Source of the DNA: an uncultured Bacteroidales bacterium
GTDB taxonomy: Bacteria; Bacteroidota; Bacteroidia; Bacteroidales; WCHB1-69
Direction of reading: 5' to 3'
Length of the DNA: 57,162 nucleotides
NCBI GenBank assembly: GCA_905235135.1
Contig: CAJOKR010000017.1
Location: 1 to 57,162 of the forward strand
The notes below the pieces were generated by a model that saw nothing but the letters and a program-made list of their open reading frames with translations, was not told the origin of the DNA and ran no database searches. The translations under genes and the position numbers were made by a program. The first letter of the stretch is position 1. Each line of letters starts with the position of its first letter. This document shows, piece by piece, positions 24,653 to 51,665 of the stretch.

Positions 24653-24776
24653 CACCATGCCAGCGGCGCAGTCGCGCAGTGTGGTGACAGGACGAACGAC
24701 GGGACCCTGAGGTGAGGTCCACGCATACCGGCCATCGCCGTGTCCCTACCCAGCATCTCGGAGAGATACGACAGCT
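24653..24776 (+). repeat. REP-like multi-hairpin element, copy A (left of RAYT-like gene)
   Basis: Outer stem CACCATGC (24653-24660) with GTGTGGTG (24679-24686), enclosing GCGGC-GCA-GTCGC. About 65 bases on, GCATCTC-GGA-GAGATAC (24753-24769) forms another small hairpin. The whole 124-base stretch aligns with 26431-26554 on the other side of the gene, in the same orientation. Confidence 0.75.
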
Positions 24777-24938
24777 CTACATCCCCACTATCGCCTCCAC
24801 CTGCACGGTGCTGTCCATAAGCCCGATGCGGGAGGAGGCGGCGATTTCGGCAAGCTGTGTGTCCTCCACTCTCTTGCGAATCACATTCTGTTGTGGAGAA
24901 TAATTAAACGCAGGGTGTTTCTGTTTTCAGAAAAAATG

Positions 24939-24947
24939 TATTTTTGC
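24939..24947 (+). promoter_or_regulatory. -7 element of the RAYT-like gene
   Basis: TATTTTTGC, 77 bases before the ATG at 25025. The upstream in-frame ATG at 24944 lies inside this box and is therefore unlikely to be used. Confidence 0.55.
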
Positions 24948-25024
24948 GGCGTGAAGGGTTCAGTCCCTTCCAAGGGAATTCAGTTCCCACCCCAAACCCC
25001 AAACAAATATTTTACAAAAAAACG

Positions 25025-26086
25025 ATGAACAACGAAACAAGCAGCAATTTACCGAACGAAACTTTCACTTGGCTGAAGCCGGGTGCCTGGCGGAAACCGT
25101 GCATTGTGCATGTGACCATGGTGGCAAACGGTCGACGACCGCTCTTCGGCACTCTTAGCCATGACGGGAACAAGGCCGTGGTGGAAAAGACAGCTATTGG
25201 ATGGGCGATAATCGACCAACAACCTCGCATGCTACAGCTCTGCCCCGAAATCAAGATCCTTGCCGACAAGGTGATGCCCGACCATCACCACATTGTCCTG
25301 CAAGTCCGAAGGAGCATGAAACGCAGCATCAAAGAAGTGGTGAGGGGTTATATGCAGGGGTGCAAAGCAGAAGCGCGAAAGTTAGGCTTTGAAGGCAATC
25401 TGTACGACGGTCCTCCTCATTACCGCGTGCTCACCCACAAAGGGCAGCTTCAAGCGATGATAAACTACGTGTATGCCAATGCGGAGCGTGCTTGGCTACG
25501 CAAGCAAAACCCCAATCTGTTTTGCCTGCATCGAAACACTGAGTCTTGTGGACTGTTATTCACCTCTTTAGGCAATCATTTCCTATTGGATTGGCCAGAC
25601 AAACAGATTGTGGAGATGTCGAGAAATGCCACCGAAGAGCAGGTGCAACAACGGTTGCAGTCGGCATTGCGCGCAGCCGAGAACGGGGCCGTCACCTATA
25701 CCGCAGCCATCAGCAAAGGCGAGCAGATTATAGCTCGCACCTTACGTGAGCAAGGGTTTCCATTGGTCGTTCTTCTTCACGACGGCTTTCCTGCCGACGG
25801 CTCGCCGCAGGAACGGTTTTACAAGCCGGGAGGTGTCTATTTCGAGGCATGTTCAAAAGGGAAACTGTTACTTTTGGAGCCGTCCGAGCAAACCTTCCTT
25901 GCCCCTGCAATCCTCAGTGCCACCGAGGAAACCCTCCGCAGCAAGGCCGAGGCCAAGCATGTCCTTTTCACCCCGATTCCTGCCTCATCCCTGCGCTACC
26001 GCTTCGTTGCGCTCAATGAGATAGGGCGGTGCCTTGTTCGGGCGGACAGAGTCCGCTGTAACTGGACGGAACCGGCCGGCGGATGA
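25025..26086 (+). CDS. RAYT-like HUH (Y1) transposase with a C-terminal extension
   Basis: 353 residues. The first ~160 residues fit the Y1/REP-associated tyrosine transposase fold: a beta strand CIVHVTMVANGRRPLFG, the metal-binding HUH motif His87-x-His89 in VMPDHHHIVLQV (compare the MPNHVHLL of RAYTs) and a candidate catalytic tyrosine, Tyr148 (or Tyr150), in MINYVYANAERA. These enzymes cut and join single-stranded DNA at hairpins. Residues ~175-353 form a second domain; AISKGEQIIARTLREQGFPL and EACSKGKLLLLEP suggest a DprA/SLOG-like Rossmann fold, which is an inference. Hairpin elements of one family lie on both sides, as expected for a RAYT and its REPs. Start chosen downstream of the promoter box. 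Confidence 0.8.
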   Translation: MNNETSSNLPNETFTWLKPGAWRKPCIVHVTMVANGRRPLFGTLSHDGNKAVVEKTAIGWAIIDQQPRMLQLCPEIKILADKVMPDHHHIVLQVRRSMKRSIKEVVRGYMQGCKAEARKLGFEGNLYDGPPHYRVLTHKGQLQAMINYVYANAERAWLRKQNPNLFCLHRNTESCGLLFTSLGNHFLLDWPDKQIVEMSRNATEEQVQQRLQSALRAAENGAVTYTAAISKGEQIIARTLREQGFPLVVLLHDGFPADGSPQERFYKPGGVYFEACSKGKLLLLEPSEQTFLAPAILSATEETLRSKAEAKHVLFTPIPASSLRYRFVALNEIGRCLVRADRVRCNWTEPAGG

Positions 26087-26293
26087 CGATACACGAGCCT
26101 CACGCGCCTTCTTCCACCACAGCCTCCACCGGCACGATGCTGTCCATCAGCCCGATGCGGGTGTCGGTGGAGTGGCGGTTGACGCCGGTGTAGGATAGGA
26201 GGCGCGTGACGGCGGTTACGGACGTAGCAGGCCCCGGAAGGAGAGGTCGTGGAGGAGGACTTTCCCAGCATTGCGGTGCCTGGCGGGTCACAG

Positions 26294-26356
26294 CACCACA
26301 CTGCGCTCCGCTTGTATGGTGTTAATTGCACTGCGTGCGTCTCGCCTCTCCGAGGC
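26294..26356 (-). repeat. REP-like multi-hairpin element, copy B (inverted)
   Basis: Read on the minus strand: GCCTC-GGA-GAGGC, then GCAC-GCA-GTGC, the spacer AATTAA, and an outer stem CACCATAC/GTGTGGTG enclosing GC-GGA-GC. It is head-to-head with copy C, 34 bases away, giving a BIME-like inverted pair. Confidence 0.8.
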
Positions 26357-26390
26357 GATAAGGGAGAGGACCGTCCGTGGCGGAGGAAGA

Positions 26391-26464
26391 GCATCTCGGA
26401 GAGATGCAACGTGCCGTCAGGCGCAATTAACACCATACCAGCGGCGAAGCCGCGCAGTGTGGTG
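26391..26464 (+). repeat. REP-like multi-hairpin element, copy C
   Basis: GCATCTC-GGA-GAGATGC (26391-26407), GTGCC-GTCA-GGCGC (26411-26424), AATTAA, then the outer stem CACCATAC (26431-26438) with GTGTGGTG (26457-26464), enclosing GCGGC-GAA-GCCGC. Confidence 0.82.
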
Positions 26465-26554
26465 AAGGGACGAGTGACGAGACACTGAAGTGAGGTCCAC
26501 GCATACCGACCATCTCCGAGATCCTCCCCAGCATCTCGGAGAGATGCGACGGCT
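26431..26554 (+). repeat. Direct repeat of copy A on the right side of the RAYT-like gene
   Basis: From the outer stem of copy C onward the sequence tracks 24653-24776: the hairpin, a GAGGTCCACGCATACCG block (26492-26508, against 24714-24730), and a GCATCTC-GGA-GAGATGC hairpin at 26531-26547. A second block, CCTCCACC...GCCCGATGCGGG, is shared between 24795-24832 and 26123-26161. The RAYT-like gene is thus framed by diverged direct repeats. Confidence 0.65.
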
Positions 26555-26612
26555 CTTGTCTCGCTTTTCCAACCAAACGGAATGGAGGAAACGCTGTTGG
26601 CAGAGTTGTCCT

Positions 26613-29600
26613 CTATTTCAGAAACTTCTTAGTGATTTCTCCCTCAGAAGTAAACAGCCTCAACAAATAAGTTCCTTTTGATAATTGAGACGTATTAATC
26701 ACTCGACAATCTTTTTCAACTATCTGTATGAGACGGCCTGCGATGTCGTATATTTCTATACCATCCAACTGGATCTCGTTACTGCAATTGATAATCAAAT
26801 GATCGGTTACAGGATTTGGGTAGAGCCTGATGGAGGCAAACTCATTGTCTTGAATCCCCGTTTCTCTTGAAACAGTGAAAAGCAATTGATACGTACCCAT
26901 TGCAGCCGTTTGCTGCGGAACAACATGGTAATAGAGTCTTCCTCCGTGTTCGATGGTCATAGAGGGTACGGAAATCTCATAAAATGAAGACCAGTTGGTG
27001 CCATCGTCAGAGACTGCAATTTTTGCATCCACGCTACAGTTAGGGTCATTTGTGCAGTCGAACATCACAACTTCAACACTGTAATTATAATCTGCCGGGA
27101 AATCAATTTTGTAGTAATCCTCATCCGATGTGGTATGGAACGACGCATTGGCAACAATGGAAGATGTCGGTTCGTCTATTGTAGCCAGCAAATAGGAAGT
27201 GTTGACTGTATTGTTCGGCTCGTATTGGTCAGGTTCAACACCGCCTGTCCGAGTGATGGAAATTTGCAATTGATATGTTCCTATTTCATGGTCAGTATAA
27301 GGTAAAACCCGAAAATAAAGTGTTCCACCATCACTCATTGTCATTGCTGACATGGCATTCCCATAGTTGGAAGACCAAGTGCTACCATCTTGGGATGTCG
27401 CGAATTCTGCATCTGCTGTATAGGAGGTGTTATTGTAACTGTTAAGTATATTTGCGTTTATGGTATAGGAATAACCTGACGGAAGGTTAATCTTGTAGTA
27501 ATCTGCATCAGTGGTGATGTGGAAGTTGGCGTTCACATTGTAATTTACACTACTGGAGTTGACAGTGCCAAGATTGTAAGCTGTTGATGCTGTACTGTTT
27601 GGCTCGTACTGGTCAGGGTTAATTGAACGATTCAATACAACATGCAGTGAATAAGTACCTATGTCTCCTTGGGATGTGGGTAACACTTTAAAATATATAG
27701 TTCCTCCGTCACTCATCGTAGTCCCACAATAATTAGCTATATATGTTAGAATATTAGCATCGTAATCAAACGGTCCTTGCCAAGATGTCGTATTGTTGAC
27801 AGAAAAATAAAACTTTGCATCGACTGAATAGGATATGTCATCATTATAATACACGTCTTGCAGGATTGGAACTATATCATAAGAATATCCAGAAGGAAGG
27901 ATAATTTTATAATAATCAACATCGGTGATAGAATGGATGTTTGCTCCATTGGTATTTACGTTGGCCATGTTATCTGTAAAAACAGGAGATAAAGTATAAG
28001 CGGTTGCAGCCGTATTATTCGCCTCATACATATCCGCCACGGGCTGTGCGTGAACAGTAATTCTGACTGGATTCTGATAAAAATAACTGCCCGCATAATA
28101 CCAATTGGAAGAGCCCTGCGGTCGATACCGTAATGTCAGAAAGTAATCACCGGCAGAAGCAGTAATAGTACCCGTAAAATCGATTCCGTTAGTATAATGT
28201 GTCATACTCTCAAGAGGACTTGTAAGAGTATGTTGTTGAATAGTTTGAACATACGAACCAGTCATAGAAAGTAACGCAACAGAAAAATCACCAGAAAAAT
28301 CGGAACCGAAATTTGCAACATCCACGTTAACTGAAAGCGATTGTCCTGTATATATCATGTATTCCGACAGATCAAACTCAGAAAAAGTTTCAATGTCCGC
28401 TTCATAGGTCACTTTGAACTGCGCAAAATTGATATTGGACAGATTATCCCTAACGATTTGCGAAGTGGTGGGATTATTAAGATTTGTTGCAGAAGTGATA
28501 ATAGCAAAATATCTTCCAGGCCCTAAAGGCAACCCTCCTTGAACTGTAAAGCTTTTATTCACATAATGATTTGGAGAGATTGTGGTATAGGAAGATGTGA
28601 TTTCAGCTACAATATTGCCGTTTAAGTCTGACACTAATGCAACAAAATACCCATTAAAAGTTGCATTGCCTGTGTTTGCCACTGCACAATTAATCGAAAC
28701 TGGATGATTTGGGCCAAACAAATAAGATGTGGTCAACGTGCTATTCATCACAAGATCGTAATTAGGATGAACTACCTGATTGGATGGTGTAATGTGAATG
28801 ATAGCTTGTTGACCATAAGTATAATTACCGTTACCACTACCTGATCCTCCAGATCCAGGAGCAAGATTGTTAATAGAGTAATATCCGTCACAATAACCAC
28901 TCCATCCCCAATTAAAATGAAAATTATTATTATTAGAATAGCCATCACAAACAAAAGCATGTGCACTTGTGTTGTTCGCGTCATGTCCTGTATAGAGAAT
29001 CACTCTGTCTGAATCCAACTCATTTTTTAATATACTTATCCATTGAGCAGATGTGAAATCAGATTTAGATATTCCCTCAAGATTGTCACTATAGTTAAAA
29101 TATGTTTTTAACGCCGTTTCAGGACAAGGTAACGGTAGTAATCCGTATTCGTTAATAAAATTTGATATTCCACTAGCATAAATACCATAATTCATATCCA
29201 CACTTACTCCGCACATATACATCAATGATGAAATAGCACTTGCTTGCATGAGAGTATATGAAGTAGATGTAGAATAGTCATTCAACATCTCATTCCAAGC
29301 AATTCCTGTCTCAAAATCCACGCTCTGCATGCCGTAATTGGGGTCTATGTAAGTATGAGAACCTGTTCCAATTTGAGGATATTCCCAATATTTCAGCACC
29401 TGTGCCATGGCTGTTGCCACACATCCTGTCATGGTATTATCTTCAGCATCATAATCGTATGGACAAGATAAATTATACGGCCAACCCTGGTCCCAATGTG
29501 TAGTTAATAGAGGAGTAACATTGGTAGTACTTTTTACAGGCAAAGGCTCGCCAGCTAACAACATTCCCCAATCACTACGTATTTCATTAGAGCATCTGAC

Positions 29601-29967
29601 ATAATCTGCATTTTGGATTTCTTGTTCGTAGCCTTCCAACCAAAATTTAAGATTAGGAGGCATATTTTCAATTTGGAAAGAGTTTTCCATTGAATATCCT
29701 AATATGGGGATTGCATTATCATTAGCCGAAACAATGACAAATCCTTTTCCATTTACAGCATTAAAGATGTAAAAACCCGACAGGCAGAAGACGAAAATCC
29801 GGGACCTCTCGTTGGAAACGCAAAGTTTTACCATTTACAGTTGGCCCTGCATTGTTCTGTTTCCAGAAATTGATGGCTACTAGTTTTGCCGTAATTGTGT
29901 CAACAGGATTGGAGAAGACCAAGTTGAAACAAACAATCAGTGCTAACACTAATGTTATCTTTTTCAT
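26613..29967 (-). pseudogene. C10-family (streptopain-like) cysteine peptidase with PPC repeats and T9SS type-A signal; frameshifted
   Basis: The signal peptide and propeptide start lie at 29967-29761 (MKKITLVLALIVCFNLVFS ... TAKLVAINFWKQNN) and the rest in another frame up to 29834. Continuity resumes as VGF|YIFNAVNGKGFVIVSAND, the usual C10 propeptide sequence, so one extra base in the GGGTTTTT run near 29783-29790 explains the break. The catalytic Cys is in NTMTGCVATAMAQVLKYW and the His in SAHAFVCDGY ... FHFNWGWSG. Three pre-peptidase C-terminal (PPC)-type modules follow (each with EPN/EAN-T and DxDYYKI), then a type-A T9SS domain (YPNPVTDHLIINC ... KGTYLLRLFTSEG). Normally such a protein is an outer-membrane-exported protease. 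The break may be real or a sequence error. Confidence 0.85.
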
Positions 29968-29985
29968 AAACGTTGTTTTTATCTA

Positions 29986-30689
29986 TTATTTTTCTGCACC
30001 TATAATTTCTACTCCGTAACTTTTGGAATTAAAATAATTCTTTGCACCTTGAGGTAGTCTAATCTTTACCTTGAAAGGAGTGGAAGTATGCGGGTAATAA
30101 GTACCATATATAGTATGTGCATTGGTCTGAAGGACTTTGCCATTCTTGTCATAGTAAGAAAATTGGATATGAATCCGCTTATAGGTAGTATAGTTAGAAG
30201 AATTAACAATATATCCAGTTAATGTATTATCCGTAATACTCCTATTCTCTACCGACAAATACCATTCAGGATGGAACACTTCATTATTTTCAGTTTTATG
30301 TTGTATTTCCTTTTTTTCATATTGTTCGTAATAATAATATCCTATTCCGACCAGAACAAGTAGGAAAAAGAATGATCCAACGCACCAAAAGACAATTTTC
30401 TTTTTTGATTTCTTTTTCTCTTTTGGTTCCGCAGCTTTCGAAACATTACATTGTTGATATGCCGATTCGGAGAATGGCGGCATCTGAGGTCGTTGACCAC
30501 GTAGTGGTGGCGGAATCTGTTTGCTTGAAAACAGATCTGATAACTCATCTATGTCACCAACTCTTTTCCATTCACTTAACCCTTCGTACACCACACCCAT
30601 GTTTCTTTAGTGATGTTTTGACTTAATAATTTTAGTTTTGATAATGGTCCGATTGTGTTTTGACCATCTGAGATATAGTATTCTTTCAT
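29986..30689 (-). pseudogene. GYF_2-like domain membrane protein, frameshifted
   Basis: From the ATG at 30689 the minus strand reads MKEYYISDGQNTIGPLSKL ... KETWVW, then must change frame near 30600-30590 to continue YEGLSEWKRVGDIDEL, together forming a typical GYF_2-like domain. Removing two bases in the TGTGGTGT stretch (or adding one) restores it. Downstream are a Pro/Gln/Ser linker, a basic segment, one membrane helix (IVFWCVGSFFFLLVLVGIGYYY) and an outer ~110-residue domain (LSVENRSITDNTLTGYIVN). A strong Shine-Dalgarno-like AGGAGG lies just before the 30689 start, unusual here. Function unknown. Confidence 0.7.
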
Positions 30690-30739
30690 GTTCCTCCTTT
30701 TTTGATGTAACCAATCGAATAACAGCGCAAAATGTTGAT

Positions 30740-31249
30740 TTATGTAATTTTAAAACTATTCACTACTCTCGTCACCACTTCATCTAAATCCTCTTTCATT
30801 GATTTTGGATATTCAAGAATTACAGTGTACCAAATGTCGTTTTTCAAAATGGATTTCTCATAATATACGAACCCTTTTGAATCTACCCCTGAACGAACGT
30901 ACCAATTGTTTTTCAACACTTTATACGTGTCCGTAGGTTTGCGATTCTCTTTGAATTGCTTTTGAACATTTGTAAATAATGCATTATAACTTCCAAAAAC
31001 AGTTATGGTTAACCCTCCGTATGAGAAAGTGCGTCCATCATCATTGTCTGACTTATCCGAAACGCTCATCACCGAAGGATAGTCTATCCGATATCCGAAA
31101 CGGTCGTTGTAATAGGTTTTATAAGATATTCCTGTCCAACTACTACTATTGTTTGAAACCTTTGTCGTTGTATTGTCTGGGACTTTGTTGACTTGGTTTT
31201 GGCAAGCCATTATAGAAAGGAACGACAATACTATTAAGATTCTTTTCAT
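30740..31249 (-). CDS. Lipoprotein of unknown function
   Basis: 169 residues with a lipoprotein signal (MKRILIVLSFLSIMACQNQ, Cys16), a short Thr/Ser/Asn-rich linker and a compact domain (YYNDRFGYRIDYPSVM ... TFSYGGLTITVFG ... VLKNNWYVRSGVDSKGFVYYEKS) that looks like a PsbP/Mog1-like fold; that fold guess is weak. DNA here is AT-richer than in the housekeeping parts, in keeping with the neighbouring accessory genes. Confidence 0.65.
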   Translation of the reverse strand: MKRILIVLSFLSIMACQNQVNKVPDNTTTKVSNNSSSWTGISYKTYYNDRFGYRIDYPSVMSVSDKSDNDDGRTFSYGGLTITVFGSYNALFTNVQKQFKENRKPTDTYKVLKNNWYVRSGVDSKGFVYYEKSILKNDIWYTVILEYPKSMKEDLDEVVTRVVNSFKIT

Positions 31250-31306
31250 CTTGATGTAACTTGTTGTATAATAATTTTATGCGGTTATCGAAATTGAATC
31301 TTTTCA

Positions 31307-31729
31307 CTAATCTTTCGGCACCCACACGCAACGAACCTTGTTCCTTTCTTTCACTTCTTCATCAGCAATTTTCCCGTTGGTGAACTTCAAATTGTAATAT
31401 CTGCCAGACCTTACGTTCAGTTCCAAAGCCCAATAGTATTCGCGGGAGAAATTGCCAAACATATCCTTATATTGATAGATTGTTTGCAATTCGCCAATTG
31501 TTGGAAGTCTCCATCCTTTTCCTCTGCAGTTACACGCACTATTGGCGACATCCCATGACATACGGGAGGGCTCATCCATACCGCTCACATAGATGTCTCT
31601 GCCAGGAATCTTAATAGTGTTTGCAGGAGCATTGGGGTCACGAGGATCATCTTCCGTGGATTGGGCGAAACATGTTGGAACCCACAACATTGTTAACAAA
31701 GTCAGTAACACCAAAGAAAACTTCTTCAT
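31307..31729 (-). CDS. Small secreted protein with DUF1566/Lcl-type domain
   Basis: 140 residues from the ATG at 31729, chosen for its signal peptide (MKKFSLVLLTLLTMLWVPTCFA); the frame is open upstream to 31924 but that part is not protein-like. The mature domain (VANSACNCRGKGWRLPTIGE, YYWALELNVRSGRYYNLKF, NKVRCVWV) matches the Lcl C-terminal/DUF1566 fold found in surface proteins, related to the FISUMP domain at 5556-6896. Role unknown. Confidence 0.72.
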   Translation of the reverse strand: MKKFSLVLLTLLTMLWVPTCFAQSTEDDPRDPNAPANTIKIPGRDIYVSGMDEPSRMSWDVANSACNCRGKGWRLPTIGELQTIYQYKDMFGNFSREYYWALELNVRSGRYYNLKFTNGKIADEEVKERNKVRCVWVPKD

Positions 31730-32031
31730 TCTTCTTCGCCGTTTGTTTCCCTGTCGGCGCATCAGGTTTTCTCGCCCTCCCCCAGCACCCCAAGAGCATA
31801 TCACACAAAAGAAGCGTGGCACTGTATGCCACTTCTTCGAATGGAGGTCGTAGGAAAACCCAATGATGGAGATGTGGAACCAGCCCACGCTATTCGCGCA
31901 AGCCATCACACTCTCTTGCATCATTGTATTGGAAATTTCCTACGTTTCCATTCACAAGACGAGCATAACGCTTCGTTTATTCAATAAAAATCCGTCAACA
32001 GTCCGGCAAAAAGCGCCTTCGAATTGACGGG

Positions 32032-32040
32032 GCAAAGATA
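32032..32040 (-). promoter_or_regulatory. Leftward -7 element upstream of the Lcl-domain gene
   Basis: TATCTTTGC on the minus strand. It would leave a leader of about 295 bases before the start at 31729, with the hairpin at 31811-31837 inside. Confidence 0.45.
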
Positions 32041-32077
32041 CAAAAAATAGTCGGATAAACATTGCGGAATTCGCAGA

Positions 32078-32134
32078 GACGCAAAATTTTGCGTCGCCAC
32101 ACCCCAGTAGAGACGCACGGCCGAGCGTCTCTAC
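32078..32134. repeat. Two tandem palindromes of the GAGACGC family
   Basis: First, GACGCAAAA/TTTTGCGTC at 32078-32095 (perfect, no loop); second, GTAGAGACGC (32107-32116) with GCGTCTCTAC (32125-32134) around an 8-base centre (ACGGCCGA). Confidence 0.8.
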
Positions 32135-32364
32135 ACCCACGTAGTAGCCATACCCATCCAGGCCCTTTGAGCTTGGGTAGAGTATGCCTGCACTATGGCT
32201 ACACTATGGGTAGGACTTGGGAACGTGGGTTCTGGTAGGGTGCTGCGGCTTGGGGAACAATTTCCGCCAAATCCCTTGCTCGAATTTAACAATTCAAGGT
32301 TGAATAGTTAAATACAAATTCGCATTACTTTGAAAACCAGCCGGATAAAAATTTCCAAAAAGAC

Positions 32365-32396: not shown

Positions 32397-32416
32397 CGTC
32401 TGAAATTTTGAAAACA

Positions 32417-42929: not shown

Positions 42930-42983
42930 AATGGTTGTATGTTTTTGTACTTTGACTTTTTGTCTTTTTCGAGTTTGTCGCCC

Positions 42984-45050
42984 CTACCAGATGTGCGAGC
43001 GTTTCTCGGGTGCCATGTACATCGGGTCGCCGGGTTGGATGTTGAAGGCCTCGTAGAAGGGGTCGATGTGGCGCAAGGTGGCGTTCACGCGCCAGCGGCC
43101 GAGGGCATGCGGGTCGCTCTTGGTGCGGCGAAGAATCTCAGCTTCGCGGATGTTGGCAGCCCAGACGGCGGCGTAAGCGAGGAAGAAGCGTTGCTCGGGG
43201 GTGAAACCGTCCATGTCGCCTTTGATTTGGCCGTCTTTTTTGGCCTTCTGGAAGGCGGTGTAGGAGACGTTCAGACCACCGTTGTCGGCGATGTTCTCAC
43301 CCAAAGTGAACTCACCGTTGGCATAGACGCCGGGGGCGACTTCGATGCTGTTGAAGTGATCGACGATGAGCTGGGCTTTCTCCTTGAAGGTCTCAGCGTC
43401 CTGTTCGGTCCACCAGTCGGCGAGGTTGCCGTCCTTGTCGTAGTTGCGGCCCTGGTCGTCGAAACCGTGGGTCATCTCGTGGCCGATCACCACACCGATG
43501 GCACCGTAGTTGGCGGCATCATCCGCGTTCATGTCAAAGAACGGGGGTTGCAGGATGCCGGCGGGGAAGCAGATTTCGTTGGTGGTGGGGTCGTAGTAGG
43601 CGTTCACCGTTTGCGGGGTCATCTGCCACTCAGTCGGATTGACGGGCTTGCCGATTTTATTCAGGTTATAGGCCATGTCGAATTGGCGGGAGTTCTTCAC
43701 GTTGGCATAGTAGCTTTCCGTGCCGATGGTCAGGCCGCTGTAGTCGCGCCATTTGTCGGGATAACCGATCTTCACGGTGAAGGCGGCTAACTTGTCGAGG
43801 GCATTCTTCTTGGTCTGGTCGGTCATCCAAGTGGAATTCTTAATACGCTCACCGAGAGCCCATTGCAGGTTCTTGACGAGCTGTTCCATGCGCTCCTTGG
43901 CTTCTGCGGGGAAGTAGTTCTTCACGTACATCTGACCGACGGCCTCACCGAGACACTCGTCGAGGTTGTCGATGACGCGTTTCCAGCGCGGACGGTTCTC
44001 TTTCTTGCCGGAGAGGGTCTTGCCGTAGAACTCGAAGTTAGCATCCACGAATTCGTCGCTCAGGTAGGAAGCTGCATTGCGGATGACGTTCCAGGCGAGG
44101 TAAGCTTTCACCACGTCAAAGTCCGTGACTTCGAGGATGTTGCTAACGCCTTGGATGTAAGTGGGTTGGCAGACGTTGAGCGTGTCAACGTTCAGATTGA
44201 GGGTTTTCAGATATTGTTTCACGTTGAGGGCGGGGATCAGCTGCTGGAACTCCGCGGGCGTGCATTTGTGGATGGTCTGGTAGGGATCGCGCAATACGGT
44301 CTTGTCGATGGCGTGTTTGGCGAGGAGGGTCTCTAAGGCTAGAATGCGCTTGGCCATCTCGGTTTCGTAGCCCTTGAAGTTGGCCATCGTGCTGTAGCCG
44401 GACATGCCGAGCATCTTAGCCACCAACTTGACGTACTCGTCGCGGATGTTCTGCTGGTCTTTGTCAAGATAGTAGTCGCGGTCGCCGATGCCGAGGCCGG
44501 ATTGCCAGATGTGGGCGATGGTCATGCTGCTGTTGTCGGGGTCTGCGGAGCCGAACAGGGCGAAGAACGGTGTTTGTCCGTTCATCAGCATCTGCGCCAG
44601 CTGCACAGAAAGGTCGTTACGTTTCAGGTTGTTGATGGTGTTGAGTTCCGGTTGGATAGGGGTGGCACCGCCGCGTTCGAGGTCTCCGGTGGCCATGCCG
44701 GTGTTGTAGAAGTCCGCAATTTTCTGCTCGATGGAGCCGGGGGCGTTCTTCTGAGCCGCAATCTTGGTCACCAGTTCCTTGAGCTGCTCTTGGTTGTTCT
44801 CCGCCAGCACATCGAAGCTGCCGTAGCGGGCATATTCGTCGCCGAGCGGGTTGCTGGCCATCCAGCCGCCGCAAGCGTACTGGTAGAAGTCGGCGGTGGG
44901 TTTCACCGATTGGTCAAGATTGCCCGCGGTCACGCCGGAGGTCGTCTTTTTCGGTTTTTTGGGTTTTGCAGGGGTTGCCATACTCGTTGAAGTCGCTAAA
45001 AAAACAAAACCGAGTGCCAAAACACTCGCAAACATAACGTTCTTTTTCAT
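42984..45050 (-). CDS. M13 family (neprilysin-like) zinc metallopeptidase
   Basis: 688 residues from the ATG at 45050, chosen for its signal peptide (MKKNVMFASVLALGFVFLAT). The zinc site is VVIGHEMTHGFDDQGRNYD, with the downstream Glu in LGENIADNGGL; NAYYDPTTNEICFPAGILQ and the C-terminal NATLRHIDPFYEAFNI / MAPEKRSHIW are standard M13 landmarks. Periplasmic or surface endopeptidase cutting small peptides. It faces a long heptad repeat array immediately upstream of its promoter. Confidence 0.93.
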   Translation of the reverse strand: MKKNVMFASVLALGFVFLATSTSMATPAKPKKPKKTTSGVTAGNLDQSVKPTADFYQYACGGWMASNPLGDEYARYGSFDVLAENNQEQLKELVTKIAAQKNAPGSIEQKIADFYNTGMATGDLERGGATPIQPELNTINNLKRNDLSVQLAQMLMNGQTPFFALFGSADPDNSSMTIAHIWQSGLGIGDRDYYLDKDQQNIRDEYVKLVAKMLGMSGYSTMANFKGYETEMAKRILALETLLAKHAIDKTVLRDPYQTIHKCTPAEFQQLIPALNVKQYLKTLNLNVDTLNVCQPTYIQGVSNILEVTDFDVVKAYLAWNVIRNAASYLSDEFVDANFEFYGKTLSGKKENRPRWKRVIDNLDECLGEAVGQMYVKNYFPAEAKERMEQLVKNLQWALGERIKNSTWMTDQTKKNALDKLAAFTVKIGYPDKWRDYSGLTIGTESYYANVKNSRQFDMAYNLNKIGKPVNPTEWQMTPQTVNAYYDPTTNEICFPAGILQPPFFDMNADDAANYGAIGVVIGHEMTHGFDDQGRNYDKDGNLADWWTEQDAETFKEKAQLIVDHFNSIEVAPGVYANGEFTLGENIADNGGLNVSYTAFQKAKKDGQIKGDMDGFTPEQRFFLAYAAVWAANIREAEILRRTKSDPHALGRWRVNATLRHIDPFYEAFNIQPGDPMYMAPEKRSHIW

Positions 45051-45108
45051 TCTTAACTTGTTAAAAATCAATCTTGTATAATAAAAAATGCCCCTTGGCT
45101 GGGGGACG

Positions 45109-45117
45109 GCAAATATA
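45109..45117 (-). promoter_or_regulatory. -7 element of the M13 peptidase gene
   Basis: TATATTTGC on the minus strand, about 59 bases before the start. The region where its -33 box should be runs into the heptad array. Confidence 0.5.
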
Positions 45118-45126
45118 TAATTTTTT

Positions 45127-45275
45127 TTGGTTTAAGGTTTATGGTTTAAGGTTTAAGGTTTAAGGTTTAAGGTTTATGGTTTAAGGTTTAAGGTTTAAGG
45201 TTTAAGGTTTAAGGTTTAAGGTTTAAGGTTTAAGGTTTATGGTTTATGGTTTATGGTTTATGGTTTAAGGTTTCA
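45127..45275. repeat. Long heptad array (TTTAAGG/TTTATGG)n
   Basis: About 21 units of 7 bp, mixing TTTAAGG with runs of TTTATGG near the right end, and finishing in CACGTCTTATGTCTCAAGG. It is the reverse orientation of the unit at 9490-9564 and fills the space between two leftward genes. Confidence 0.93.
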
Positions 45276-45292
45276 CGTCTTATGTCTCAAGG

Positions 45293-47272
45293 TTACTTCA
45301 CTGTTCCTTGTACTTTATAGTCTTTCAATTCGCGGTTGTCGGAGCTGCCGTGGTAAAAGAGTTTGCCTTTGCGGGTGGTTTTGCAGTCGCGGATGGAAAC
45401 GCTGTTGTTGCTGCCGTAGAAACTGATGAGCATCCGGCTGTCACAGGGAACGAAGGTTGATTTGTAGTAAATGGCTTGGTTGTCAATGTAATAACGGGCG
45501 TCATCGGCGTTGTTGAGATAGAGGGTGCAGTGGTTGTAGTTGCGCTTGGTGCCGTTGCTGGTGGAGTTGTATCGAATCATCCCGATTTCGCAATCCGTAT
45601 ATTTAATATTGTAGGAGCTGTTCTCGTTGACGTTGTAGTTGAGCCGTGAATCTGCAATGTTGATTTTGTCGCTTTTACTGTGACGCAGTTTGAAAATCAG
45701 GCTTCCAGGATAAGAGTACTTCTTCACTGCCTGTCGTTTCATCTGTTTGGTCGTCGGAATCAGCGTGACCTTCTTCAAATCGTAGTTGATTGAATTACTT
45801 GATTTTACTGTTTTATTGCTGATGACGAAATCGGCTAAATGGGAAGTGTCGGCGTAGTGGAACTTCAGTCCGTCGATTTTGATGGCGGAGATGTGGTCCA
45901 CGCTGACGTTCGAGCTGATCGGCGTTTTCGGCTCGAAAAGGATCACTTTGGAAACCTTGTTGGCCACGTTCACGGTCATGTTTTTGATGGTCACGTTCGG
46001 CCAGCATTTCTCGGCCAGCTCCGGACGGGAGTTCTGCTGGTTGTCAACTTTCCCGATGGAAACTAAGAAGTTGCGACGTGGTAGCGCGTCGAAAATGCAG
46101 TCCTTGAACGTCAGGTCGAAGGCTGTGTAGGCATTGTAAGAGGTCTCGATGAGCACCGGGACGAAGTCGGTGAAGCGGCAGCCGTCGAAGAGCAGCGTGC
46201 CGAAGATGGACGAGAACTGGTTGTAGAGTTTGCCGAAAGTGCAGTTGTGGAAGGCAATGTCGCGACCGTAGCAGTGGATGTCGAAACGGTTGAGGGTGCA
46301 GTCGCGCAGGGTCGCCTTGCTGATGTTGTTGGTGCCGAAGATGCCCCAGTTGGCGCGGGCAGAAAGGCGGATGAAGCTGCTGTTCCAGACATTGTCCATC
46401 TGGATGCCGTAGCCGTAAAGGTTCGTGCGCGAGTAGGTGCCCTCGATGTGTACGTCCTCCAGCGTGACGTTGGTGCAGTTCCGGATATTGATGGCCGCAT
46501 CGGCGTACATATTCTTCGTATCGGGAGTGTAGATGTTGATATTGCTGATTTTCAAGTTGTTGACGCCTTCGATGTCGAAACAGTAGGTTTTCGCAGTGGC
46601 AGTGGTATCGCGGGTGATGGTGAGGTTAGCGATGGTTTTCAGCTCCTCGTCGGCGCGGTGGTAATTGACGCATATATCGGTGGAATCGGTGGAGTAGGGG
46701 GAGATAGGATGGTTGATGGTGTGATTATCCTTCACGAGCAGGATGTCCTTCCGCATGGCCCCATACGAGTAGCCGGCGCGGTTCGCCACCCAAGGGTGAA
46801 GATCCTCAATTACAAGCAGATAGATGCCCTCGGATAGCTCTTCTCTGTCGTCGAGGGCGCCATCATCCACCGAATCCGAACCCAGCTCGATAGTGTTCCA
46901 GATGCTGTCGGCCATGGAGAAGAGGTAGTGCGGTTTGGCGTTGTTCTTGACGGAAAGCAGTACCCCGCCGAAGTCGTTGCGGCGACCCAGCGGGATGGAT
47001 TGCGCATTTTGGGTGACTTCGATGGTGAGAGCTCCGACCCCACGGTAGGAGACCTCGGCACCGATGTTAACAGCCTGCAGGTGAGTGTTGTAGAGTACGG
47101 TATAGCGTGCGCTGTCGGTGGTGGCCTCCGCCAGCCCGAAATCGAATGGGGAAAGCGTCTGAGGAATGTAAATGGAGTCAGCGGTTTGGGCGATAGCGCC
47201 ACCCACTGCACCGAAAAGGAATATCAGTGCAGATAATACAAAGTTCTTAATATCAATACGATGGGTGGTCAT
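45293..47272 (-). CDS. Secreted right-handed beta-helix-like protein
   Basis: 659 residues with a signal peptide (FVLSALIFLFGAVGGAIAQ). Residues ~200-640 carry short repeats of the parallel beta-helix type (NLKISNINIYTPD, NCTNVTLEDVHIEGT, KATLRDCTLNRFDI, DIAFHNCTFGKL, TLLFDGCRFTDFVP, FDLTFKDCIFDAL). Such folds occur in polysaccharide lyases and adhesins, but no lyase catalytic motif is evident. The N-terminal 200 residues are unassigned. Not seen to carry a T9SS sorting domain. Confidence 0.77.
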   Translation of the reverse strand: MTTHRIDIKNFVLSALIFLFGAVGGAIAQTADSIYIPQTLSPFDFGLAEATTDSARYTVLYNTHLQAVNIGAEVSYRGVGALTIEVTQNAQSIPLGRRNDFGGVLLSVKNNAKPHYLFSMADSIWNTIELGSDSVDDGALDDREELSEGIYLLVIEDLHPWVANRAGYSYGAMRKDILLVKDNHTINHPISPYSTDSTDICVNYHRADEELKTIANLTITRDTTATAKTYCFDIEGVNNLKISNINIYTPDTKNMYADAAINIRNCTNVTLEDVHIEGTYSRTNLYGYGIQMDNVWNSSFIRLSARANWGIFGTNNISKATLRDCTLNRFDIHCYGRDIAFHNCTFGKLYNQFSSIFGTLLFDGCRFTDFVPVLIETSYNAYTAFDLTFKDCIFDALPRRNFLVSIGKVDNQQNSRPELAEKCWPNVTIKNMTVNVANKVSKVILFEPKTPISSNVSVDHISAIKIDGLKFHYADTSHLADFVISNKTVKSSNSINYDLKKVTLIPTTKQMKRQAVKKYSYPGSLIFKLRHSKSDKINIADSRLNYNVNENSSYNIKYTDCEIGMIRYNSTSNGTKRNYNHCTLYLNNADDARYYIDNQAIYYKSTFVPCDSRMLISFYGSNNSVSIRDCKTTRKGKLFYHGSSDNRELKDYKVQGTVK

Positions 47273-47304
47273 TAGAATCTATGGGCCTCAGATAATTGAA
47301 AAAT

Positions 47305-47313
47305 GCAAAAATA
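47305..47313 (-). promoter_or_regulatory. -7 element of the beta-helix gene
   Basis: TATTTTTGC on the minus strand, 33 bases before the start; divergent from the cdd promoter. Confidence 0.5.
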
Positions 47314-47340
47314 CATTTTTTACAGATGATAGAAAAATGT

Positions 47341-47349
47341 TATATTTGC
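47341..47349 (+). promoter_or_regulatory. -7 element of cdd
   Basis: TATATTTGC, 24 bases before the cdd ATG. The upstream ATG codons of the same frame lie before this box. Confidence 0.55.
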
Positions 47350-47372
47350 GGCGTTTTTTGAATGTGGAAAGT

Positions 47373-47861
47373 ATGAAGACGATAACATTGGAGACCCAGA
47401 TGCGGGTGTATGAGAATCGTGAGGAACTTCCGGTGGAACTGCGCGAGCTGTTGCGCCATGCTGAGGAAGCCGCCACGCGTGCGTATGCGAAGTACTCCCA
47501 TTTCCAAGTCGGAGCAGCCATCTTGATGAACAACGGCAAAGTGGTTACGGGTGCGAACCAGGAGAACGCCGTCTATCCGTGCGGTCTCTGCGCCGAACGC
47601 ACCGCTGCCTTTGCGGCCTCTGCCACATATCCCGAGGTGCCCTTCAACATGATTGCCATCACTGCCATCAACCCCGACGAGCCGCTCAAGGAGCCCATCT
47701 CCCCCTGCGGAAGCTGCCGTCAGGTGCTCTTCGAATACGAGCAGAAGTTCGGCCATCCCATCGAAGTGTTGCTTGCAGGACAGGAGGGCCCGATTTACCA
47801 CATCCAGAGCGTCGCGCATCTGCTACCCTACACCTTCCATGCGGGATTCCTCCCGAGGTAG
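47373..47861 (+). CDS. cdd: Cytidine deaminase
   Basis: 162 residues from the ATG at 47373. Converts cytidine and deoxycytidine to uridine forms in pyrimidine salvage. Substrate motif YSHFQVGAAIL, the proton-shuttle Glu in PCGLCAERTAA and zinc cysteines in that motif and SPCGSCRQVL are all present. The N-terminus is about 20-25 residues longer than in the shortest homotetrameric enzymes. The stop codon is followed one base later by a heptad repeat tract. Confidence 0.94.
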   Translation: MKTITLETQMRVYENREELPVELRELLRHAEEAATRAYAKYSHFQVGAAILMNNGKVVTGANQENAVYPCGLCAERTAAFAASATYPEVPFNMIAITAINPDEPLKEPISPCGSCRQVLFEYEQKFGHPIEVLLAGQEGPIYHIQSVAHLLPYTFHAGFLPR

Positions 47862-47862
47862 A

Positions 47863-47913
47863 GTTTAAGGTTTAAGGTTTAGGGTTTAAGGTTTAAGGTT
47901 TAGGGTATAGGGG
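47863..47913. repeat. Heptad tract (TTTAAGG/TTTAGGG)
   Basis: Six or so 7-bp units, TTTAAGG and TTTAGGG mixed, directly after the cdd stop; decays into TATAGGGG. Confidence 0.85.
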
Positions 47914-48084
47914 TTAGTCCTGGATTTTCATTAATCGTACATTTTTTTGTCACGAGTGTCTTATTTTTAGACAGTCGGATAGGAGGTTGTTGTTTTCAAT
48001 TTGTTGATTTACAACCGGTTGTTGTTTTGGCACGGTTTTGGAAGTAACGATGATGCGGTAATGCGTGCTCTTGCGGGTCGGAGG

Positions 48085-48114
48085 TTCCGCCACCTCCTGT
48101 CGTCGGTGGCGGAA
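48085..48114. other. Strong hairpin TTCCGCCACC/GGTGGCGGAA
   Basis: A perfect ten-pair stem (48085-48094 with 48105-48114) and a 10-base loop in the cdd-ABC intergenic region, 37 bases before copy D. No T-run follows; it may belong to the repeat region rather than being a terminator. Confidence 0.6.
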
Positions 48115-48151
48115 TGGAGTTGCGTTGAATGATGATAACTAGGTGACGCAC

Positions 48152-48215
48152 CGCCTCGGAGAGGCGACACGCACGAAGTGCAATTAACCCCATACAAGCG
48201 AAGCGCAGTGTGGGG
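48152..48215 (+). repeat. REP-like multi-hairpin element, copy D
   Basis: GCCTC-GGA-GAGGC, GCAC-GAA-GTGC, AATTAA, then outer stem CCCCATAC/GTGTGGGG around GC-GAA-GC. It ends 26 bases before the ABC ATPase start. Confidence 0.85.
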
Positions 48216-48241
48216 AGTCCAGAACGAAAACCCAAAGTGAA

Positions 48242-48907
48242 ATGATAAAACTCGAAAACATCAGCAAAAGCTTCCGCTCCGAAACGGTGGAGACGAAAGC
48301 GCTACAACATGTAAATATGGAGGTCCGGAAGGGCGAATTCATAGCCGTAATGGGCCCTTCCGGTTGCGGTAAGACGACCTTGCTCAACATCCTCGGACTC
48401 CTCAACACCCCCGACTCGGGTCGCTACCTCCTCAACGGCCGCGATGTGAGCGGGCTGAAAGAGCGCGACCGTCTGAAGTTGCGGCGCGGGGTCATCGGCT
48501 TCGTCTTCCAAAGCTTCAACCTCATCGACGACATGAATGTCTTCGAGAACGTGGAGATGCCGCTGCGTTATCTCGGCCTCAGCAAGTCGGAACGCAAGGC
48601 GAGGGTCAACGAGGTCTTGGATCGGATAAACATCATCCACCGTGCCAGCCATTACCCGCAGCAGCTCTCCGGTGGACAGCAGCAGCGCGTCGCTGTGGCC
48701 CGCGCCGTGGTCTCCAACCCGCAGCTCATCCTCTGCGACGAGCCCACCGGCAACCTCGACAGCCACAACGGTCTCGACGTCATGCACCTGCTCTGCGACC
48801 TCAACGCCGCCGGCACCACCATCGTCATGGTCACCCACAGCGCCCACGACGCCGGCTTCGCGCATCGCATCGTGAAACTGCTGGACGGAACCGTAGTCAG
48901 CAGTTAG
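48242..48907 (+). CDS. ABC transporter ATP-binding protein (LolD/MacB type)
   Basis: 221 residues, the length of LolD/MacB-type ATPases. Walker A GPSGCGKTTLLN, Q-loop FVFQSFNLID, signature LSGGQQQRVAVARA, Walker B LILCDEPTGNLD and switch His in MVTHS are all intact. It should power the two FtsX-type permeases that follow. Its stop codon overlaps a heptad tract, and copy D of the hairpin element sits just upstream. Confidence 0.93.
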   Translation: MIKLENISKSFRSETVETKALQHVNMEVRKGEFIAVMGPSGCGKTTLLNILGLLNTPDSGRYLLNGRDVSGLKERDRLKLRRGVIGFVFQSFNLIDDMNVFENVEMPLRYLGLSKSERKARVNEVLDRINIIHRASHYPQQLSGGQQQRVAVARAVVSNPQLILCDEPTGNLDSHNGLDVMHLLCDLNAAGTTIVMVTHSAHDAGFAHRIVKLLDGTVVSS

Positions 48908-48930
48908 TTAGTAGTTAGTAGTTAGCAGTT
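48904..48930. repeat. Heptad tract (TTAGTAG units) overlapping the ATPase stop
   Basis: A partial TTAG (48904-48907, containing the stop codon), then TTAGTAG twice and TTAGCAG. Confidence 0.65.
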
Positions 48931-48972
48931 GTAACGAAATACCCACCATATAATAAAAATATTCCTTGAGCA

Positions 48973-49041
48973 GTCCCGAAGGGACAAGACGCACGAAGTG
49001 CAATTAACCCCATACAAGCGACGAAGTCGCGCAGTGTGGGG
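48973..49041 (+). repeat. REP-like multi-hairpin element, copy E
   Basis: Three hairpins with GAA loops: GTCCC-GAA-GGGAC (48973-48985), GCAC-GAA-GTGC (48991-49001) and GCGAC-GAA-GTCGC inside the outer stem CCCCATAC/GTGTGGGG (49008-49041). It ends 30 bases before the first permease start. Confidence 0.88.
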
Positions 49042-49071
49042 CCTGACAAGAACGAAAAAACCAAATCAGAT

Positions 49072-51585
49072 ATGAAACAAACCCCAAAAATTCTCAACAT
49101 CCTCGGTCTCGCCGTGGCCATCGCCACCTTCATGGTGGTGGCAATGATAAGTTATTATGACAGCCATTACGACAGGTCGTATCCCGGCGCAGACCGCATC
49201 TACTCGGTGTGGCTCATGAAAAACATGTACTTAGGCAACGATACGGTAGAGAGTTCTGTTCAATCAGGAGAAGCAGATTATCAGTTGCTTACGGGATTTT
49301 CTCTGAATGGTGACAGCCAAGTTCAATCCTCGGGGCAACCTTTAGAAGAGATTGAGGATGTCTGCACATTAAGCGGTTACGGCTATGGTTGGCAACGGGT
49401 GACTGCGGAGAACAGCACCGCACCCGACACCATCTCTAAGATACAAATGACCATTCCCGCCTACTTTTCCTTTTTCGGCATTGAAATTAAAGAGGGAAGT
49501 TTGGAAAAATTTAACGATTTTAGGAATGCTGTGATTTCCAATAGGTTAGCGAAAATACTTTTCCCTAAAGGAGATGCAATTGGACAACGGATTATCTTGA
49601 GTCCGAACGATAATCAAGAACGAACAGTGCGAGATCTCGATACCCTCACGGTGATTGCTGTTTACAAAGATCTGCCGCAGAACAGCTCCCTGTATGACTA
49701 TACTGTCGTACGGCACTATCCTCCTGGCATCTTTTATGGTAATTTGTATGTGAAAGTGAAAGATACAACGAAGGTTAATGTCTTGAAAGAAAAGATGATG
49801 GACCGTTATCAAACGGCATATCACTCCTTTTGGGACAATGCTGATACCACCGGCGACGAGGCATTAAGCCAAGCGGAATATAAACTAAAGTATAAAGATG
49901 CGCCGCAGGAAATCGACAATGTGATGATGTGGTCTTTGCACGACAACTATAATTCTCCCAACAACTTCTGGAATTTGGAAGAGCACCAGATGACCGTGAT
50001 TTCCAAATCATTAGACATTTTCGGAATAGTGTTGCTACTGATCGCCTTCTCGAATTATGAGAATTTTGCGACGGCGACCGTGATGCTGAACCGCCGCAAG
50101 ACGGCCATCCAAAAAGTGGAGGGCTGCTCCAATGCCCAGCTGCGTTGGAAGATGTTCGGGCAATGTATGCTCGGTGCCATCATCGCAATTGCCATTGCCC
50201 TGCTCATCGTGGAGGTCTGTGCCCGCACAAAGGTTATTCCATTTGTAAACATCAGTCTTAAAGTCGCTGATAATCTGCGTATTGTATGGATAGCAACAGC
50301 CATTGTCTTCATCTTTGCAGTAGGTTGTTCGTTCGCTCCCGTTTATTACAGCACCACTGAGGCCGACATGGATGCAGCGCTGAAGAAGAGTCTTTCCGAT
50401 TCCACCAAAAGCTCTTGGTGGCGCAAACTGGCACTCCGTCTGCGGACCACACCGTGGTCGGGGGTGCAGTTCTACGCCTCGTTTGCCATCATCCTCTTCA
50501 TGACGTTGGTTTTTGTGCAGAACCATTACATGAAAACCACCGATTTGGGTTTTGAAACGGAAAACATTTATATGACCCGACTTGTTAAAACAAATGTCTC
50601 GTCTTCGGAAGATGTAGATTTGCTCAATGCGCTCACATCGAAGGATATGGAGCACCTGAAGAGCGAATTAAGCAAGTTGGAAGGGATTGCGGATGTCACG
50701 TGGTCGGAGGATCCAGTTCTCGGACATGACGGATGGTTTGGTCAATGGGGTATTCGTGTGGGCGATGAAACGGTGAGTCTTCCAAAACGACGGGTGTCGG
50801 TAAACTTCTTTACCTTTTTCGGTATCAACATGTTAGAGGGAAATAATTTCGATGAAGTATGCGTTGGTTTGCATGAAGGTCGAATCATCAATGCGGCAGC
50901 TCTGAAAGAGGCGAAGCAGTGGGAGATAGATTCGAACCGACGGAATTCCGGCATTGATGGCATTGTACCCGATTTCCACAACATGCCGCTCGTCAACGAC
51001 GTAGAGCCTTGTATCTATGTTGCGAGTTCCCTTCCTGATAAAATTTTCAGTAAGCCATACGTTTATGTTAAATTGAGACAATCTGCAAATCAAGATGTTG
51101 TCCAATCTTTGTTAGACCGTATAGACACATTAGGTGCCCACTCGGTTCACATCGAGACTCTCGGTTCGTTGAAAGATGCCATTGGCAAAGAATACCAAAA
51201 AGAGGACGATTTCGCCAAGTTGACGGCCTTGTTCGGGGCGATTACCTTGTTCGTCGCGCTCACCGGACTGCTTGGCATGGTGTTCTTAGACTGCATGTAC
51301 CGTCGCCGCGAGCTGAGTCTGCGCCGCGTCTATGGCGCTTCCACCGGCAACCAACTCTGGCAGATGATCCGCAACCAACTTATCATCTGCATCATCACCT
51401 TCGCCGCCGCTGCGCCCTTGGCCGTCAGCCTCTTCCGCAAATGGCAGCAGCACTTCGCCTACAAAGCCGACATCCCCGCCTGGGTCTTCCTCGCCGTCTT
51501 CCTCTCCATCACTCTCCTCGCGCTGGCCATCACCGCCTGGCAGACACTGCGGACGTTGCGGGAGGATCCTGCGGAGGTGATATAA
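49072..51585 (+). CDS. ABC transporter permease, FtsX/MacB type (first)
   Basis: 837 residues from the ATG at 49072. An N-terminal helix (ILNILGLAVAIATFMVVAMI) precedes a MacB periplasmic-core-like domain; a first FtsX segment begins near VISKSLDIFGIVLLLIAFSN, a second helix set follows, then a second extracytoplasmic domain and a final FtsX domain (LTALFGAITLFVALTGLLGM, MYRRRELSLRRVYGAS, VFLAVFLSITLLALAITAW). This duplicated layout is common in Bacteroidota export systems for lipoproteins, peptides or antimicrobials. No HlyD or TolC partner is in the window. The extracytoplasmic parts are less GC-rich than the membrane parts. Confidence 0.88.
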   Translation: MKQTPKILNILGLAVAIATFMVVAMISYYDSHYDRSYPGADRIYSVWLMKNMYLGNDTVESSVQSGEADYQLLTGFSLNGDSQVQSSGQPLEEIEDVCTLSGYGYGWQRVTAENSTAPDTISKIQMTIPAYFSFFGIEIKEGSLEKFNDFRNAVISNRLAKILFPKGDAIGQRIILSPNDNQERTVRDLDTLTVIAVYKDLPQNSSLYDYTVVRHYPPGIFYGNLYVKVKDTTKVNVLKEKMMDRYQTAYHSFWDNADTTGDEALSQAEYKLKYKDAPQEIDNVMMWSLHDNYNSPNNFWNLEEHQMTVISKSLDIFGIVLLLIAFSNYENFATATVMLNRRKTAIQKVEGCSNAQLRWKMFGQCMLGAIIAIAIALLIVEVCARTKVIPFVNISLKVADNLRIVWIATAIVFIFAVGCSFAPVYYSTTEADMDAALKKSLSDSTKSSWWRKLALRLRTTPWSGVQFYASFAIILFMTLVFVQNHYMKTTDLGFETENIYMTRLVKTNVSSSEDVDLLNALTSKDMEHLKSELSKLEGIADVTWSEDPVLGHDGWFGQWGIRVGDETVSLPKRRVSVNFFTFFGINMLEGNNFDEVCVGLHEGRIINAAALKEAKQWEIDSNRRNSGIDGIVPDFHNMPLVNDVEPCIYVASSLPDKIFSKPYVYVKLRQSANQDVVQSLLDRIDTLGAHSVHIETLGSLKDAIGKEYQKEDDFAKLTALFGAITLFVALTGLLGMVFLDCMYRRRELSLRRVYGASTGNQLWQMIRNQLIICIITFAAAAPLAVSLFRKWQQHFAYKADIPAWVFLAVFLSITLLALAITAWQTLRTLREDPAEVI

Positions 51586-51602
51586 AACCTCTTCCTTGAG
51601 CA

Positions 51603-51665
51603 GTCCCGAAGGGACAAGACGCGCGAAGCGCAATTAACCCCACACAAGCGAAGCGCAGTGTGGGG
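51603..51665 (+). repeat. REP-like multi-hairpin element, copy F
   Basis: GTCCC-GAA-GGGAC (51603-51615), GCGC-GAA-GCGC (51621-51631), AATTAA, then outer stem CCCCACAC/GTGTGGGG (51638-51665) around GC-GAA-GC. It lies 17 bases after the first permease stop. Confidence 0.88.

Follow-up and report, generated by a model that had tools for sequence, protein, structure and literature searches.

A dispersed three-hairpin element in a rumen Bacteroidales genus

The stretch of DNA analysed here (57,162 nt, hereafter the window) is contig C17 of the genome of a rumen Bacteroidales bacterium (G000; 3.26 Mb, 118 contigs, 88% complete), and it carries copies of an element of three stem-loops that resembles repetitive extragenic palindromes (REPs). 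We consider it likely that the element is non-autonomous, that it is moved as single-stranded DNA by an IS200-like transposase, TnpA-Y1 of subclass 1.2, and that it inserts, or survives, only in the sense orientation in gene leaders. An earlier note on the window had reported six copies (A–F) with a shared plan of hairpins; direct reading and a covariance model confirmed this observation, with five complete copies (B–F) and a fragment (A). Four results go beyond that note: the element is spread through the genus, it is linked to a transposase, it obeys a sense-leader rule, and it shares its sites with a second family.

To determine the copy number, the whole genome was searched with a two-arm pattern, which gave 45 matches, while the reversed pattern, used as a control, gave none. 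A covariance model (R1) was built on an alignment (A3) of 36 of these 45 copies, leaving out four with odd first hairpins and five others; window copies C and E were among those left out, so that B, D and F belong to the training set and C, E and A lie outside it. R1 gave 141 matches in G000 at E≤0.01 (150 candidates scored, some being partial or tandem third hairpins) and 58 in G020, a 99% complete genome of the genus. Matches were present in 35 of 36 genus genomes (labelled Gnnn, with fetched loci labelled Lnnn) at 1 to at least 82 copies each, and in none of 24 genomes from other families of the order. The covariance-model search of the genome and of related Bacteroidales that the earlier note had proposed therefore returned many further copies. 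The window held no Rfam 15 match at the gathering score, nor did positions 48100–49100 at E≤5, and searches of the open-access literature, with the letters of the element included, found no description of it.

Architecture and conservation of the fold

The consensus unit of all 45 pattern copies consists of TTCCTTRAGCAG, hairpin 1, AAAAC, hairpin 2, the linker AATTAA (the usual form) and hairpin 3, over a length of about 72–80 nt. Hairpin 1 reads GCCTC GRA GAGGC, with compensated variants, hairpin 2 reads GCGC GAA GCGC or GCAC GAA GTGC, and hairpin 3 is formed by CCCCACAC ... GTGTGGGG enclosing an inner mini-hairpin, AAGGCGAAGCCGCA or AAGCGAAGCGCA. The core GYGCAATTAACMCCAYAC, allowing up to three mismatches, has five occurrences in the window, compared with a shuffle expectation of 0.31. 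Among 69 copies complete by regular expression, loop 1 was GAA in 38 and GGA in 31, and loop 2 was GAA in 56, GGA in 6, GCA in 5, and GTA and AAA in one each. As the expression admits only three-base loops in hairpins 1 and 2, it is for three-base loops that nearly all are GNA; the inner loops of hairpin 3 include GTAA, GCAA and GATA. At the foot of hairpin 3, 193 expression matches in fetched G000 loci gave TTAA 49 times, ATAA 22 times and GTAA four times, the rest being scattered, and the abundant dispersed form is CCCC..GGGG with one of these three feet. PMC4686876 ascribes unusual stability to DNA mini-hairpins that have a GNA or GNNA loop and two or more G-C pairs; the melting temperature it gives for GCGAAGC is 78 °C, which upholds what the earlier note had said of this sequence.

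To evaluate whether the arms of the stems change together, five covariation measures were compared with 500 shuffles. In A3, 99.2% of cells pair, four pairs are changed on both sides and three of the five measures exceeded all shuffles; the other two failed, as the number of pairs changed on both sides was matched by 102 of 500 shuffles and the number of pair types by all 500. In A5, an alignment of 67 distinct rows fitted to the model (G020 plus one or a few loci from each other genome), 98.8% of cells pair, 12 of 17 pairs are changed on both sides, and all five measures exceeded every shuffle and every slid version, although the copies are related and A5 leans to structure. The earlier claim that coordinated changes keep the fold was thus borne out on A5 and more weakly on A3, by measures that ignore kinship. 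Taken together, the pattern search, the R1 counts and the covariation support REP-like repeats with a conserved fold. On the top strand, 33 G.T cells were found against 10 A.C cells, an excess suggesting that it is this strand which folds.

After some complete elements, hairpin 3 is repeated in tandem, either by itself or together with a short lead (G000:C14:32086-32332, C32:17354-17635 and C20:78121-78333), possibly a trace of slippage. Another repeat, of the type ATTCCCC..GGGG..GGGCGGGG, lies inside hairpin 1 of some copies and just before the element in others (L240 / G000:C30:17940-18050, C15:29134, L252, L256 and L259).

Nearly all copies lie in sense orientation ahead of genes

Gene context was determined for 139 copies: 81 of the best 110 of the 141 G000 matches (the remaining 29 having no fetched flank), 30 of the 58 G020 copies and 28 copies taken one per genome. 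Gene calls came from a model of codon usage for which the fetched loci served as the training set. Relative to the element, both neighbours were sense in 118 cases, divergent in 14, both antisense in four and convergent in one; one further copy had no downstream gene and one lay inside an open reading frame call, so that the 141 matches behave as a high-copy extragenic palindromic repeat. The element was sense to its downstream gene in 132 of 137 cases, counts that are not fully independent since some copies are tandem or neighbours. The median distance to the downstream ATG was 37.5 nt (n 132; the first in-frame ATG was taken, which shortens the figure), and the median distance from the upstream stop was 43 nt. 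With sense copies tens of nucleotides before a start codon, in 5' leaders or between the genes of apparent operons, the dispersed copies are probably transcribed as part of the mRNA leader.

Convergent gaps make up 7.6% of the intergenic length in 12 larger G000 loci, 11 of which were fetched because they hold copies, and against this baseline one convergent case in 137 is a deficit (p 5e-4). The position rule may come from target choice, purifying selection or host use; as hairpins should be harmless in convergent gaps, the deficit speaks against purifying selection as the sole cause. Directly before the element stands TT, and an A+T-rich stretch occupies positions −16 to −7. In 7 of the 14 divergent cases, a TAnnTTTG box, which we take to be the Bacteroidota promoter motif, stands upstream of the element at a distance of no more than 140 nt (no more than 60 nt in four); in 2 of 14 it occupies the interval between element and ATG. 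In the Cyclobacterium genome of L355, 12 pattern matches were found, including three pairs inverted about 190 nt apart, an arrangement which confines the sense-leader rule, as demonstrated, to the rumen genus.

A subclass 1.2 transposase framed by relatives of the element

When G000 was searched with NF047646, a REP transposase model, five genes matched, among them P0001 in the window, which is described below. No R1 match lay near the genes on contigs C94 and C86, nor within about 4.7 kb of the gene on C20. The gene on C111 had complete R1 matches on both sides in locus L124, in the order +363, −827, gene 909-1358 (−), −1556, +1656. Its product, of 149 aa, contains DHVH and YIARQKEHH, and by these motifs and its length it is assigned to TnpA-Y1 subclass 1.2, IS200-like, for which Quentin et al. 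(2018; PMC6006769) give the signature DH[IV]H and Y-x3-Q-x2-HH, a median length of 148 aa and a distribution in Bacteroidetes. The NCBIfam IS200/IS605 transposase model scored it at 65 bits against a cut-off of 55, and 24 of 24 aligned homologs matched at E≤0.001. The named relatives closest to it belong to uncultured Bacteroidales, in many cases of rumen origin. Many near-identical copies of a whole gene-bearing element were not seen in G000, which has one such gene, the next homolog being 31% identical.

To evaluate whether this association extends beyond one locus, homologs and their flanks were compared. Among 19 homologs from the genus (56–100% identity), an R1 match lay within 1.5 kb, contig permitting, in 17 at E≤0.01 and in all 19 at E≤1, while other RAYT (REP-associated tyrosine transposase) types had an R1 match, one each, at 3 of 36 loci. 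The 300 nt upstream and downstream of the gene were then examined in 80 relatives located on named genome contigs, of which 78 had enough flank and some share a genus or genome: significant inverted repeats were found in 63 of 78, and direct repeats also scored in 31. When a displaced dummy gene was used as the control, inverted flanks were seen at 45 of 58 real and 0 of 58 displaced positions. The positive loci include Cyclobacterium, Oligosphaera, Dysgonomonadaceae, Muribaculaceae and Actinobacillus, and seven flanks inspected by eye share a plan of a hairpin, a linker ending in ATAA or ATAG, a long hairpin, a spacer and a third hairpin. The inverted pair formed by window copies B and C, both of the CACC form, aligns at 80% over 173 columns with a pair beside the C111 tnpA.

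These results suggest a mechanism in which the top strand would fold, as single-stranded DNA, into three stem-loops, and the HUH/Tyr enzyme encoded on C111 would bind, cut and rejoin the folded strand. Recognition would depend on the loops, GNA or GNNA, and on a tetranucleotide of the NTA[AG] type where hairpin 3 has its foot. The orientation rule could then arise if new copies enter A+T-rich target DNA on the leader side and those that land antisense are lost. By their sequence, the flanking elements are homologous to the dispersed copies but of a sister subfamily, and we infer that the enzyme acts on the dispersed subfamily as its substrate.

Comparison with known systems

BrickBuilt miniature inverted-repeat transposable elements (MITEs) are larger and are built of tandem units. 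Compared by description, the present element is like these MITEs of Porphyromonas gingivalis (PMC5771137) in being dispersed, non-coding and intergenic in Bacteroidales. It is also like the REP/REPtron system (class 2 TnpA_REP, RAYTs), with short, high-copy extragenic palindromes of which homologous copies frame a Y1 HUH transposase gene; in that system, TnpA_Ec binds single-stranded REP and not its complement (PMC8266576). In contrast to REP/REPtron, the element has three hairpins instead of one, its dispersed copies carry TTAA, ATAA or GTAA at the foot and not GT[AG]G (three of the four copies beside tnpA do carry GTAG), and the gene framed by complete copies belongs to class 1, subclass 1.2, and not to class 2. 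The term REP chosen in the earlier note therefore holds in the sense of REP-like, and fails for the dispersed copies in the strict class 2 sense of a GT[AG]G foot and a RAYT partner.

The C111 enzyme agrees with the published description of subclass 1.2 in its length, DHVH, Y-x3-Q-x2-HH signature and Bacteroidetes host. In PMC6006769, however, that subclass is entered as 'no' REP and without typical IS200 ends, the automatic REP search having demanded GTAG or GTGG, whereas inverted flanks were found here at most of the loci. A transposase subclass described without repeats is now linked to a flanking hairpin element, on a plan common to distant bacteria. For subclass 2.6 (Bacteroidetes) and for class 3, the same source describes flanks with secondary structures of an atypical kind, of which the genome has copies elsewhere; by description, their Y motifs, YIH[QN]NP and Y----Q, set them apart. 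E. coli REPs are described in PMC12306157 as situated near gene ends or between operon genes; unlike them, the element obeys a sense, gene-start rule that is nearly absolute. If our reading is true, it can be tested whether transcribed leaders are selected as targets by single-strand transposases, and whether repeats of this kind alter the leaders of many genes at once.

Element turnover at orthologous sites

Orthologs of an apparent operon in the window, with copies E and F ahead of its two permease genes, were compared across the genus. The slot of copy E is occupied by the same family in G006, G012, G013, G014 and G023, by a second family (TTCCAARAGGGCTGNARGCCC..CAACCCAGGG..CCCTGGG) in G019, G025 and G062, and, in G002, G020 and G063, by a composite that joins hairpin 1 to the second family. 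At the slot of copy F, the same family is present in G006 and G023 and a composite in G012. No element can be recognized there in G013, G014, G025, G062 and G063, where the gap does not exceed 81 nt, or in G002, G020 and a second G012 operon, where the gap is long and unrelated. Across the genus, 13 of 40 genomes contain the second family, with up to 28 copies and none in the reversed controls; all 11 copies whose gene context was inspected were sense to the downstream gene.

Second-family copies (CAACCCAGGG..CCCTGGG) were also seen in the same kind of leader slots in G013, G009, G031, G002 and others. In G012:C2, copies directly follow a tnpA of 31% identity, and in G025:C140 they adjoin one of 33% identity.

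A bolder extension, which we put forward tentatively and hold to be rather doubtful, is that a DNA hairpin dispersed by transposases has become a portable mRNA-leader module: single-strand transposition would seed it, always in sense, ahead of more than 100 genes, families would compete for slots, the host would use it to control expression, and subclass 1.2 TnpA would be the engine in Bacteroidota.

The copies in the window

R1 recovered B, C, D, E and F at E 1.5e-8 to 2.6e-23. Copies D, E and F, all on the + strand, point along what appears to be a single operon, made up of an ABC ATPase gene (48242-48907, assigned by Pfam) and two MacB/FtsX permease genes. Copy D (48144..48215; 80.9 bits) lies 26 nt 5' of the ATPase gene start, copy E (48964..49041; 84.6 bits) lies between the ATPase and first permease genes, 30 nt before the start codon, and copy F (51594..51665; 98.2 bits) lies between the permease genes, 65 nt before the second. 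In copy E, hairpin 1 spans 48973-48985, hairpin 2 48991-49001, AATTAA 49002-49007 and hairpin 3 49008-49041.

Copies A, B and C are placed around a RAYT-like gene, P0001 (25025-26086), the fragment A on one side and B and C on the other. Copies B (26294..26364, −; 76.6 bits, E 9.9e-18) and C (26385..26464, +; 41 bits, E 1.5e-8) are inverted relative to each other and belong to the CACCATAC..GTGTGGTG subfamily, C having the first hairpin GCATCTC/GAGATGC. Copy A (24620..24686, +) scored E 0.89 with R1 and aligns with the equivalent portion of copy C at 91% (family D7). It had been noted as missing its second hairpin, which is so, although the loss goes further, and the outer/third hairpin alone (24653-24686) is kept.

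The product of P0001 (+ strand) is a divergent RAYT-like protein, with HxH and Tyr conserved and a conserved C-terminal half. Against Pfam it gave a sub-threshold Y1_Tnp match alone, the C-terminal half having no match above the cut-off; a DprA/SLOG-like nature was suspected for this half, but no library supported it. Direct repeats (82%) surround the gene at 24785-24841 and 26114-26170, are kept beside the orthologs in G031, G006 and G012, and are probably P0001's own repeat partner. Inverted flanks particular to the gene were also seen at 4 of 12 genes of the P0001 type, the four encoding a single kind of protein of 333 aa.

Alternative explanations

Several observations weigh against mobilization by subclass 1.2 TnpA. 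Among 11 more distant homologs, an R1 match was found beside one at E≤0.01 and two at E≤1, and three Chryseobacterium loci failed the inverted-flank test. The four elements at the C111 tnpA score 34–62 bits with R1, compared with up to 99.8 for dispersed copies; they have the CACC..GGTG form with GTAG (three) or TTAG (one) at the foot, and some have GCC as the second loop. Likewise, the tnpA flanks in G007 reach at most 29.5 bits, though its dispersed copies reach 100.3, and four genomes that lack a homolog of 56% identity carry many copies, namely G002 (75), G006 (54), G009 (33) and G013 (at least 82). Although the varying occupancy of orthologous slots between species speaks for movement, these species are too distant to give letter-exact insertion junctions. 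Copy number is higher in genomes with subclass 1.2 TnpA (p 0.0014) and more strongly so with the P0001 family (p 9e-5), but it also tracks genome size (rho 0.72), which confounds both associations, and copy number against transposase presence was therefore set aside as a test for the partner.

The element might instead be a structured-RNA regulator of mRNA leaders, kept by selection and copied with leaders by recombination or gene conversion, its link to a transposase being incidental or historical. The sense orientation of 132 of 137 copies near start codons would agree with this, as would the promoter-like box lying upstream of the element (7 of 14 divergent cases) more often than after it (2 of 14), and the different families in one slot, as if a structured leader were kept. 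We nevertheless regard it as unlikely, since the loops suit DNA mini-hairpins, inverted copies frame tnpA genes, species of one genus carry from one to more than 80 copies, and the copies precede unrelated genes and match nothing in Rfam. Mobilization by P0001, with A, B and C as its REPtron, is suggested by the position of the gene between A and B/C, by a weak match to the NCBIfam REP transposase model (E 7.4e-5, 22.7 of 80 bits) and by the copy-number association described above, which genome size confounds. However, near-identical orthologs (G031, G012 and G006) and one of 76% identity (G003) have no adjoining R1 element, except for one weak match 1.2 kb off in G006, and the orthologs share the other flanking repeat; P0001 is thus probably not the partner, and its role as the mobilizer seems improbable to us. 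Finally, G+C-rich hairpins in intergenic positions could be ordinary intrinsic terminators or attenuators, alike by convergence. A common sequence of about 75 nt over 141 matches, the lack of a T run on the sense strand after hairpin 3 in the listed copies and the single convergent case in 137 make this hardly credible, and movement by subclass 1.2 TnpA is the account we favour.

Other features of the window

A C10-family cysteine peptidase with an inhibitor propeptide and a secretion-system sorting domain is encoded at 26613-29834 (−). A dispersed palindrome, GTAGAGACGCA..TGCGTCTCTAC, occurs at 13221-13261 and 32098-32138, and also at 22714-22754. Intergenic tandem arrays of a 7-base unit (TTTAAGG / TTTATGG and its complement) were found at 9457-9579, 45096-45312 and 47829-47947.

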